A stretch of DNA of 43,937 nucleotides from Aliihoeflea sp. 2WW (GTDB lineage: Bacteria > Pseudomonadota > Alphaproteobacteria > Rhizobiales > Rhizobiaceae), in the NCBI RefSeq assembly GCF_000497755.1, contig NZ_AYOD01000060.1, positions 1-43,937 on the forward strand. The letters are read 5' to 3'. The first letter of the stretch is position 1. The number at the start of each line of letters is the position of its first letter. The notes under the pieces were generated by a model that ran no database searches, was not told the DNA's origin, and saw nothing but the letters and a program-made list of their open reading frames with translations. Made by a program: the position numbers and the translations under genes. Below, one piece after another: positions 3,220 through 42,001 of this stretch.

Positions 3220-3366
3220 CCCCCTCTCCGCCTCGCTTCGCGAGGCACCTCTCCCCCACTTCGCGGGGGCGAGGAAACGCTGCTGCAAACGGCGAGCGAT
3301 TTCCAGCTTGGAGTTCCTCGCCCCCTTCGGGGGAGAGGTGCCTCGCGAAGCGAGGCGGAGAGGGGG
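3220..3366. repeat. Long inverted repeat (family B) between midA-like gene and pgeF
   Basis: The left arm 3220-3274 and right arm 3316-3366 are almost perfect reverse complements over about 50 bases; only the tip differs. Each arm contains CCTCGCTTCGCGAGGCACCT or its complement, itself a smaller palindrome. About 40 bases of unrelated sequence separate the arms. It is a different family from the TATCCCTCCCC repeats. The last bases of the window (from about 43881) look like a diverged copy. A transcript through it would fold into a very stable hairpin. Confidence 0.85.
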
Positions 3367-16359: not shown

Positions 16360-16380
16360 TCGCCCGCTCCGGCGCCGAAC

Positions 16381-16519
16381 CCCCACCCTTTATCCCTCCC
16401 CACAAGGGGGAGGGAGGCCATGAGCGCCGCGATTTTCGGATCGGCGCGGTGCCAGGGTTCAAGGTAGGTTCGACGCCGGCGACCTCCCTCCCCCTTGTGG
16501 GGAGGGATAAAGGGTGGGG
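16381..16519. repeat. Complete palindromic repeat, family A, between rplY and pth
   Basis: Arms 16381-16417 and 16483-16519 are perfect 37-base reverse complements, running from CCCCACCCTTTATCCCTCCC on the left to GAGGGATAAAGGGTGGGG on the right. The roughly 65-base centre is not palindromic but contains GACGCCGGCGA, the complement of the CGCCGGCGT motif seen in the other copies. The transcript would fold into a very stable hairpin between two translation genes that are usually co-transcribed. Confidence 0.9.
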
Positions 16520-16582
16520 GTTTTCCCTTCGAAAAAGACTCCCGTCCTTCCCAACTGCCCTTTTCGGGAGACACCAACGCCC

Positions 16583-17281: not shown

Positions 17282-17311
17282 AGCCCTTCCGGTCGGCTCA
17301 GCACCCCGCCG

Positions 17312-17463
17312 CACCCCCCTCTGGCCTGCCGGCCATCTCCCCCTCAAGGGGGGAGATCACGCACGCTATCATTCGCGCCAAAACATTCGTCGGTTCAGCA
17401 GGACGATGGCGAGACTGATCTCCCCCCTTGAGGGGGAGATGCCCGGCAGGGCAGAGGGGGGTG
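17312..17463. repeat. Palindromic repeat, family C, between pth and exoD-like gene
   Basis: The left arm 17312-17358 and right arm 17416-17463 are near-complementary. The right arm reads GATCTCCCCCCTTGAGGGGG, then AGATGCCCGGCAGGGCAGAGG. Each arm holds a smaller palindrome, CTCCCCCTCAAGGGGGGAG. The spacer is about 57 bases. It differs in sequence from families A and B but has the same design of two G/C-rich arms around a short centre. Confidence 0.85.
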
Positions 17464-17555
17464 TGCCGGAGCACGACTTCTTCACTCAATCACCCCTTCC
17501 CTTTTCCCCCCACCGACACGATATCCGACGACCACTCACCGCGGGAACCACCCCC

Positions 17556-27832: not shown

Positions 27833-27901
27833 CAGCTTCGGCCAAATGCTGGACGGTCGGCCGACATTGCCTTTGACCAGCGCGGGATTCACGAATATCG
27901 C

Positions 27902-27938
27902 GGCCTGGATTCCTGTGACAAGCACAGGAATCCAGGCC
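27902..27938. repeat. Perfect 16-bp hairpin between phd-vapC and the DUF6665-like gene
   Basis: GGCCTGGATTCCTGTG (27902-27917) pairs without mismatch with CACAGGAATCCAGGCC (27923-27938) around the loop ACAAG. It lies between two convergent genes and could stop transcripts from both sides, although no T run follows. I remember near-identical TTCCTGTGACAAGCACAGGAA hairpins in many rhizobial genomes, which suggests a dispersed element; this cannot be confirmed here. Confidence 0.75.
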
Positions 27939-27993
27939 TCGCTCCGACCGCTTCAAAGACGGTTGAGATCAACCACGGGTCGGGCATCCTAGT

Positions 27994-33045: not shown

Positions 33046-33189
33046 GACCCCCACCCCATACCCCTCCCCACAAGGAGGAGGGGGTCGCCGGCGTTGTGCC
33101 TGTCCGTTTAACCAAGCTCCGAGCTGAAGAGGATGTGCGACGTGGATGTCCCCCCTCCTCCTTGTGGGGAGGGGTAAGGGGTGGGGGTC
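33046..33189. repeat. Family A palindromic repeat, left copy flanking the DUF559 gene
   Basis: Arms 33046-33084 and 33150-33189 are reverse complements with one mismatch (GACCCCCACCCCATACCCC against GACCCCCACCCCTTACCCC). The centre carries TCGCCGGCGTTGTGCCTGTC and ends GATGTGCGACGTGGATGT. Reverse-complementing the centre of the copy at 33657 gives the same order of motifs, so the two copies are inverted relative to each other. Confidence 0.92.
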
Positions 33190-33259
33190 TTCTTCAGAGG
33201 AATCCTTGCAAACTCTAAATTTGTTCCCGACGTTGACGTTCTCGTGGGGAAAAACCGAG

Positions 33260-33622
33260 ATGCCAAGCGCCGTCGATCCAAATTTAATCTCGCGGGCGCG
33301 CAAACTCCGCCGCGACATGACCGACGGCGAGCGCCGTCTCTGGGCGGAGTTGAAGATGTTCCGGACCTGGTACGGCATCCATGTCAGGCGACAGGCGCCC
33401 ATCGGGCCATACGTCGCCGACTTCGTCATCCACGAGAAGCGTTTGGTCATCGAGATCGACGGCGAGCATCATCAACTGCCGGATCGGCAAGTTCGCGACC
33501 GTTTGCGCGACGAGCGGTTGGCCATGGATGGGTATCGCGTGGTGAGGATCGATACGGGTGAGCTTGGCGACAATTTCGATGGGTGTGTCGAGACGATCCT
33601 GAGGGAAATCGGGGTTGTTTGA
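33260..33622 (+). CDS. DUF559 / Vsr-like endonuclease-domain protein
   Basis: The 120-residue product has the DUF559 signature: RARKLRRDMTDGERRLWAEL, VRRQAPIGPYVADFVI, RLVIEIDGEHH, RDRLRDERLAMDGYRVVRI. The last motifs fit a PD-(D/E)xK-type nuclease core (D in ADFV, E-x-D in VIEIDG). DUF559 proteins resemble the very-short-patch repair nuclease; the biological activity is unproven. The frame runs upstream into the repeat, but ATG 33260 precedes the conserved part. The gene stands alone between two inverted copies of a roughly 142-bp repeat (33046-33189 and 33657-33797). Confidence 0.88.
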   Translation: MPSAVDPNLISRARKLRRDMTDGERRLWAELKMFRTWYGIHVRRQAPIGPYVADFVIHEKRLVIEIDGEHHQLPDRQVRDRLRDERLAMDGYRVVRIDTGELGDNFDGCVETILREIGVV

Positions 33623-33656
33623 GGGGTGGTGCTTCTACTTGCAACGTCTGCGCGGT

Positions 33657-33797
33657 ACCCCCACCCCTTACCCCTCCCCACAAGGAGGAGGGGGACATCC
33701 ACGTCGCACACCCTATTCCGCTTGGTGCCTGGCCGAACGGAAAGGCGCCACGCCGGCGCCCCCTCCTCCTTGTGGGGAGGGGTAAGGGGTGGGGGTC
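33657..33797. repeat. Family A palindromic repeat, right copy flanking the DUF559 gene
   Basis: Arms 33657-33694 and 33759-33797 pair almost perfectly. The centre begins ACATCCACGTCGCACACCC and ends CGCCACGCCGGCGC, the inverted form of the left copy's centre, with differences in between. The short flank outside the right arm (CCTCTTCGCAGAAATCC) resembles the flank right of the left copy (CTTCTTCAGAGGAATCC), so the shared unit may extend beyond the arms. Confidence 0.92.
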
Positions 33798-41575: not shown

Positions 41576-41640
41576 GATGTGTGAGGCGAGCCAGTACGAT
41601 TCATCGAACAGCTCGCGGGTAGGTCCGGTTTTCCTGAATT

Positions 41641-41784
41641 GACCCCCACCCTGTATCCCTCCCCACAAGGGGGAGGGAGACGTGATCGCTGCGCCAGCCC
41701 TTAACGCGTGGCTCCACGCTGAAAGGCAAACACGACGCCGACGCCCTCCCTCCCCCTTGTGGGGAGGGATAAAGGGTGGGGGTC
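41641..41784. repeat. Complete palindromic repeat, family A, downstream of hemF
   Basis: Left arm 41641-41679 (GACCCCCACCCTGTATCCCT...) and right arm 41744-41784 pair with few mismatches. The centre contains CACGACGCCGACG, whose complement CGTCGGCGTCGTG aligns with the core of the other copies. The right arm's final GGGGGTCA supplies the stop codon of the small gene at 41783-42001. It lies 65 bases after hemF and could act as a strong hairpin for both flanking transcripts. Confidence 0.9.
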
Positions 41785-42001
41785 ACTTCGGAGAGAACGC
41801 AACCTCGCGCTTGCCACTTTCAGGGGCAGGTAACCTGGCGCCTCGCAGGCTGCGGTGACGAAACCCCGCACACCCATCCGGCCATTGTGGCGTCAGTGGC
41901 AGATCGGCGATTTCGTCCAGCGACATGGCCTGGATAGCGGGATGTGCGAGCGGGTCGTCGGGACTGGGTTCGGGACAGCGTCTCAAGAAAAACTTGAACA
42001 T
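41783..42001 (-). CDS. Small protein divergent from a LysR regulator
   Basis: The 72-residue product begins MFKFFLRRCPEPSPDDPLAH and continues PAIQAMSLDEIADLPLTPQW. It has a short basic hydrophobic start and no recognised domain. GAGGAG lies eight bases before ATG 42001, a good SD. Its last codons run into the family A repeat, so the C-terminus may have been altered by insertion of the element. The gene is divergent from the LysR gene, 92 bases away, and may be its target. Confidence 0.6.
   Translation of the reverse strand: MFKFFLRRCPEPSPDDPLAHPAIQAMSLDEIADLPLTPQWPDGCAGFRHRSLRGARLPAPESGKREVAFSPK

Follow-up and report, generated by a model that had tools for sequence, protein, structure and literature searches.

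A DUF559 nuclease gene between inverted palindromes in Aliihoeflea sp. 2WW: a candidate REPtron-like selfish unit with relatives across bacteria

Dispersed palindromes are common repeats of bacterial genomes, and to our knowledge a mobiliser has been proposed only for those paired with RAYT enzymes, the tyrosine transposases associated with repetitive extragenic palindromes (REP). Described here is a gene of the DUF559 family that is bracketed by two inverted palindromes in Aliihoeflea sp. 2WW (RefSeq assembly GCF_000497755.1; contig NZ_AYOD01000060.1, positions 1 to 43,937; this whole stretch of 43,937 nucleotides is called the window). The closest described systems are the REPtrons (RAYT/TnpA-REP) and TIRtrons and, on the enzyme side, the Vsr-like homing endonucleases. 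In REPtrons and TIRtrons a dispersed palindrome, present in inverted copies, brackets a small enzyme gene, the enzyme diversifies together with its palindrome, and solo copies exceed the unit in number; the DUF559 units are alike in all these respects (the REPtron features compared are those given in parts of PMC3733652 and PMC8266576, and those of the homing endonucleases in part of PMC3943268).

The window unit begins with copy 1 of a palindrome called family A (33046-33189, + strand; complementary outer arms of ~38 nt, both with a four-G-tract, quadruplex-type motif on one strand), located 5' of the DUF559 gene (33260-33622, + strand), which encodes a 120 aa nuclease of the Vsr-like PD-(D/E)XK type. 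Copy 2 (33657-33797, - strand) lies 3' of the gene, in the opposite orientation to copy 1. The first-pass annotation, made from the letters alone, had described two inverted ~142-bp copies with common centre motifs around a DUF559 gene, and this layout holds: the copies are 90% identical in opposite orientation, the centre motifs occur in each of them (one with a single mismatch), and the enclosed reading frame matches DUF559 in Pfam at 1.2e-26. Each copy is itself palindromic, with outer arms of 38-43 nt around ~65 nt; one arm pair is 100% complementary and the other 95%. As single-stranded DNA, the two copies have folding energies of -56.7 and -62.8 kcal/mol, with z-scores of -10.8 and -11.2 relative to shuffled sequences.

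Besides DUF559, the Pfam scan of the window protein returned only REase_MTES_1575, just under the cut-off, and no HUH-domain or DDE transposase match; cholera-toxin-like matches (E 0.3-0.7) were taken as chance. Twelve residues are invariant over 64 aligned DUF559 domains, the window protein among them (R8, E15, R35, Q36, D45, E56, D58, G59, H62, D71, R74 and R87 in domain numbering), and all are kept in the window protein. Its predicted fold is close to the homing endonuclease I-Bth0305I and to Vsr, the very-short-patch repair endonuclease, in a VIA-align comparison; the model suggests a catalytic fold of the EDxHD/Vsr type. This fold match strengthens the nuclease side of the argument.

There are also differences from the described systems. 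Unlike in REPtrons and TIRtrons, the enzyme is a DUF559 protein with a Vsr-like fold and without an HUH-domain match; the family-A ends (the window copies and an alignment of 23 copies, this family only) have no GTAG/CGTC tag at the hairpin foot, and the arms found across phyla consist of a C-rich hairpin and a G-rich tail. Unlike EDxHD homing endonucleases such as I-Bth0305I, the DUF559 unit has no visible intron or intein host, its protein, 120 aa in total, lacks a long extra DNA-binding region, and it is flanked by dispersed palindromes. Unlike that of Vsr, the DUF559 gene is bracketed by palindromes. For Caulobacter VsrA, a functional link to a cytosine methyltransferase is reported in the part of PMC12907096 consulted; the Caulobacter ScmA motif YGCCGGCR was considered as a target and rejected, being present in only 5/23 family-A copies. 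Miniature inverted-repeat transposable elements (MITEs) are likewise short inverted-repeat elements with many copies, but here there is no target-site duplication signal, and the gene between the palindromes has no match to a DDE transposase. The dispersed copies also resemble what we take to be the rhizobial intergenic palindromes RIME/RPE and Box C of E. coli, families for which we know of no dedicated enzyme; unlike these, the palindrome types here go with DUF559 clades.

Family A is dispersed throughout the genome. Its arm pattern, with up to 3 mismatches allowed, has 166 matches, 84 on one strand and 82 on the other; the reversed-pattern control has none. In 23 copies selected from the best matches within this genome, identity is 92-93% in the arms and 56% in the middles; their consensus folds into a single long hairpin with 36 base pairs, and four of these pairs have changes on both sides. 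Four of the five DUF559 genes of this genome adjoin such repeats, of three different types. Apart from the window gene, L002 is bracketed by an inverted type-4 pair, L001 has by reading a type-6 repeat upstream that is interrupted by the contig end, and L003 has type-4-like repeats upstream by reading, which the automatic adjacency test did not flag; the fifth match sits inside a very long open frame.

The arrangement is far more general than first described. In a family sample of 60 DUF559 loci (one per genome, from the listed matches ordered by profile score, with 6 kb per side where the contig allowed), a long palindrome or a bracketing inverted pair adjoins 52/60 DUF559 genes vs 19/338 neighbouring open reading frames (ORFs; script-called frames of at least 100 aa, not annotated genes), and an inverted pair brackets 27/60 vs 0/338. 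In a cross-phyla sample, the best 80 of 564 loci from named genomes, 66/80 DUF559 genes are palindrome-adjacent vs 31/251 control ORFs and 49/80 are bracketed vs 2/251. The annotation had proposed asking whether DUF559 genes adjoin repeats more than other genes do; the answer is yes in both samples. Since the arm pattern is abundant and its control empty, and bracketing is absent from the family control ORFs, chance is excluded as the origin of the gene-palindrome arrangement.

The palindromes concentrate at the gene. In the family loci they cover 33% of the first 250 bp upstream and 26% downstream, and coverage drops to 4-5% over the following 250 bp and to 0-0.9% past 500 bp; by eye, many of the 23 distal palindromes look like solo copies of the same repeat types. 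A slightly looser adjacency count in the best 80 loci gives 67/80 (Rhizobiales 20/24, other Alphaproteobacteria 19/20, beta/gamma 8/9, others 20/27; groups assigned from record titles). Another 28 loci of the phylum, some from the same family, gave 25/28 at a 300-bp limit with one incomplete locus left out. On viral contigs, 18/23 full-length DUF559 matches (two on one contig, a few apparent near-duplicates) are adjacent vs 8/57 distant relatives. Pooling the 60 and 80 loci, 76/140 units are bracketed, with a median length of 500 bp. Thus, like a REPtron, the DUF559 unit places an enzyme gene between inverted copies of a dispersed palindrome. DUF559 is present in 108/299 sampled genomes of the phylum, and 41 plasmid-search records match the window protein, all at <60% identity, the E. 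coli record discussed below among them. Among the papers listed in searches on DUF559, ycjD and COG2852, and on DUF559 combined with REP, RAYT, Vsr and inverted-repeat terms, in a library that covers few subscription journals and not bioRxiv as such, no title or abstract opening contains a DUF559-palindrome link.

In E. coli the DUF559 gene is ycjD, which K-12 MG1655 carries and whose layout is that of the window unit. Directly upstream of it is a 45-nt palindrome, 89% self-complementary; downstream, a dispersed element is present as an inverted pair. The pattern of this downstream element, presumably Box C, has 14 matches in a 4.94-Mb E. coli record (control 0), two of which are the pair itself and 12 are further matches. 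Lineages without ycjD were considered as empty sites and rejected as not clean; in other E. coli lineages the eefRABCD operon occupies the place, according to the part of PMC12817139 consulted.

DUF559 protein clade predicts palindrome type even in the absence of synteny. When non-syntenic pairs from 64 DUF559 loci were binned by protein identity, the flanking repeats matched in 0/140 pairs below 40%, 21/1018 at 40-50%, 40/387 at 50-55%, 33/126 at 55-60%, 44/73 at 60-65%, 39/45 at 65-70%, and 31/31 above. Of the clades cut from the proteins alone, one contains 21 loci, all with type-6 repeats, and a single type-6 locus falls elsewhere, in a second clade with 15 type-3 loci; a third clade mixes types 4 (7) and 2 (4), and type 5 is spread over three clades. 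Enzyme clades matched to cognate palindrome types, a REPtron feature, are thus found for DUF559. The window's clade agrees with this in another way: among 11 relatives read (49-93% protein identity), the whole unit is present in a congener, G060, and family-A arms lie beside the gene in seven relatives from other genera (G030, G073, G083, G031, G099, G062 and G020; 55-66%); none lie beside the gene in G055, G082 and G021 (54%, 50% and 49%). Some DUF559 reading frames (L069, L115, L117, L122) run open into the palindrome, and arm-derived residues could therefore form the N-terminus. The clade-6 units L001, L082, L087, L096 and L099 lie directly upstream of one small gene with a CQCGAVRFRVEG motif, which we take to be GFA/CENP-V-like.

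Dispersed copies are associated with the nuclease. Load was measured as the number of genomes with more than four arm matches by pattern count, with the window clade defined as at least 55% identity to the window protein; all p values ignore relatedness. For type A, 6/9 window-clade genomes exceed four matches vs 10/112 others (p 1e-4). For type 6, 16/21 clade-6 genomes do so, as do 27/53 other DUF559 genomes, whose DUF559 genes were not assigned to clades, and 3/47 without DUF559. For either type the counts are 46/74 with DUF559 vs 3/47 without (p 2e-10), or 3/37 when genomes <3 Mb without DUF559 are excluded (p 2e-8). Plain presence counts (type A, 9/9 vs 20/112; type 6, 21/21, 41/53 and 7/47; either type, 64/74 vs 8/47) are partly circular, because the unit brings its own arms, and were superseded by the counts above four. 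In the window genus, genomes with the unit have 166, 53 and 27 arm matches, and those without a listed unit match have 4 and 0. The maximum number of dispersed arm matches per genome is 166 for type A and 304 for type 6.

A relative of the unit has been gained or lost. In another genus (99 genomes), 10 genomes have listed matches that span a window-clade unit at a single intergenic location, and an eleventh, G420, has a shortened match to an internally deleted unit. Thirty loci were read: 10 are occupied, with 526-723 bp between the anchors (526 bp being the deleted copy), 17 are empty (70-76 bp), two have other inserts (173 and 463 bp), and one, its right flank missing, has no measured length. 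On a flank tree of 29 rows occupancy requires five changes, and supported branches force at least four of them; the occupied G073 and the empty G192 are sisters. Occupation of a site in scattered lineages while relatives lack the insert, as expected of homing, is thus seen at one site in one genus, and the clean empty sites that the annotation had called for exist for a relative of the window unit. Two species of the window genus, G121 and G122, lack the unit here but offer no clean empty site; the flanking genes are rearranged and synteny is broken, so they are uninformative. In 2/4 congeners (G060, G123) the unit is inverted between its palindromes while the flanking genes keep their orientation.

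The DUF559 protein is under strong purifying selection, with a ratio of nonsynonymous to synonymous substitution rates (dN/dS) of 0.03-0.13 in 36 pairs, one of which had a saturated dS and gave no value. The G073 unit has a dS of 1.2-2.2 against eight other intact copies, compared with 0.43-0.62 for the right flanking gene, the only flank used; the unit values rest on ~118 codons and are noisy. Unit lineages may have arrived more than once, but weaker constraint may also account for this, as almost every pair has a higher dS in the unit than in the flank.

A common core is seen in the arms across phyla. In the flanks of 56 non-Rhizobiales loci, CCCCTC occurs in 42 loci vs 4.6 expected from far windows, CCTCTC in 34 vs 2.2, and CTCCCC in 39 vs 4.0. 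Most of 20 hand-chosen arm pairs show a C-rich stem, a loop, a G-rich stem and a G-rich tail. A core pattern drafted after viewing these arms, and therefore fitted to the 56 loci, is found in 46/56 near windows vs 4/186 far ones; in 28 subsequently read loci it is found in 19/28 vs 1/56. By these motif counts, arms of different phyla have a C-rich hairpin core in common. The quadruplex motif was rejected as a universal feature, occurring in only 3/60 family loci vs 7/288 far windows; it is found in 26/56 non-Rhizobiales loci vs 3/186 and in 11/24 named Rhizobiales loci vs 3/110. The G-rich repeats in the part of PMC4692102 consulted are tandem heptamers, different from the present elements.

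Other repeats are scattered over the window. Solo family-A palindromes lie at 16378-16522, a position that in G123 is likewise taken by a copy and in G060 by a short gap with no copy, and at 41636-41789, where the corresponding position in G123 holds a diverged copy and G060 has a family-A match ~60 bp past the matching left flank; as candidates for solo-copy polymorphism both were set aside as ambiguous. By eye, solo palindromes at 17306-17469 and 3220-3366 are of the types that flank DUF559 clade 6 (in this genome, L001) and clade 4 (L002 and L003), respectively. A partial family-A copy at 1-51 is interrupted by the contig end, so that the contig begins inside it, and many listed arm matches of this genome lie within ~15 bp of a contig end; the repeats therefore seem to break the assembly. 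A short palindrome (GGCCTGGATTCCTGTG...) lies at 27899-27941, a type also found after a trmL-like gene in the congener G121.

We consider it fairly probable, at roughly 60%, that the DUF559 gene and its palindromes form a REPtron-like selfish unit whose nuclease acts on its cognate hairpins and which spreads through host repair. Gene and flanking palindromes would be one small co-inherited element, typically ~0.5 kb, operating like REP/RAYT except that a nuclease takes the place of the transposase. This enzyme would recognise its cognate arm (hairpin and G-rich tail), probably in extruded or single-stranded DNA, and nick or break it, and host recombination would mend the break from another copy. 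Through such repair, arms at dispersed sites would be copied and kept alike, the entire unit would be able to enter sites or genomes already holding an arm or related target, and DNA lying between inverted copies would be flipped. The annotation had raised an analogous unit in which a nuclease spreads or maintains the palindromes; this is partly supported, as neither of the annotation's refuting conditions held: DUF559 genes lie far closer to such palindromes than other genes do, and empty sites exist. The nuclease itself may cut, spread or maintain the palindromes. Cognate pairing, dispersed-copy association and the common core motif go beyond that proposal.

Several observations weigh against the selfish-unit reading. 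Some genomes without the window clade are rich in arms (G087 with 100 matches, G104 with 66, G033 with 48). In G104 a type-A arm adjoins one DUF559 gene of another clade, the sole nearly full arm match among 18 extra loci; G087 and G033 remain exceptions. Conversely, 3/9 window-clade genomes (G030, G099, G020) hold only three arm matches, maybe the unit's own, and the counts above four make the load test weaker. In the Aliihoeflea genome only 24/166 arm matches come within one mismatch of the GGGGTNAGGGG-type pattern beside the gene, and most deviate by 2-3 from this gene-flanking subtype. Several DUF559 genes occupy the same place in different genera, and the distribution is therefore partly vertical; for example, the clade-4 units L002, L115, L117 and L122 lie directly after the same upstream gene in different genera. 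The unit with empty sites carries palindromes on one side only. Finally, no target-site duplication was found at 76 bracketed units, the longest flanking direct repeat averaging 2.92 vs 3.11 at control positions, a test that leaves room for duplications of 2-4 bp.

Another enzyme, either a RAYT-type HUH transposase or an insertion sequence acting in trans, might spread the palindromes, with DUF559 as a host or passenger processor of hairpins or cruciforms, domesticated or hitch-hiking. We regard this as unlikely: pairing without synteny, bracketing across phyla and a load found mostly with DUF559 make DUF559 the obvious partner, and the family-A ends lack the GTAG tag. Quite unlikely, too, are ordinary site-specific homing endonuclease genes, whose palindromes would be halves of a cleavage site or terminators and whose dispersed copies would arise incidentally when random sites are cut and repaired; the maximum arm numbers per genome of both types exceed what a one-site homing gene is expected to leave, and DUF559 genes occupy many different loci. 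The two could also be co-located only because hairpin-rich intergenic spots tolerate insertions, with no functional link. Palindromes and DUF559 genes are indeed both intergenic, and the empty-site locus has other inserts in 2/30 read loci, but control ORFs of the same loci are rarely adjacent (19/338, 31/251) and almost never bracketed (0/338, 2/251), pairing tracks the protein clade, and the core motif is common across phyla. This explanation is already contradicted and retains a very small probability.

If the selfish-unit reading is true, other dispersed palindromes gain a mobiliser by a route that needs no transposase. DUF559, a "domain of unknown function", gains a testable candidate substrate, its own flanking arm, and ycjD in E. 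coli makes the substrate test cheap. More tentatively, and at somewhat less than even odds, DUF559 nucleases would be the engines of pan-bacterial palindromic selfish elements unrelated to transposases, with one ancient arm core (CCCTCTCCC-hairpin-GGGAGAGGG plus a TTAGGGTGAGGG-like tail), that have seeded many dispersed palindromic repeats of previously unexplained origin, the E. coli Box-C-like element and several abundant families of rhizobia among them. The nuclease-repeat unit may thus explain the origin of many scattered bacterial palindromes.
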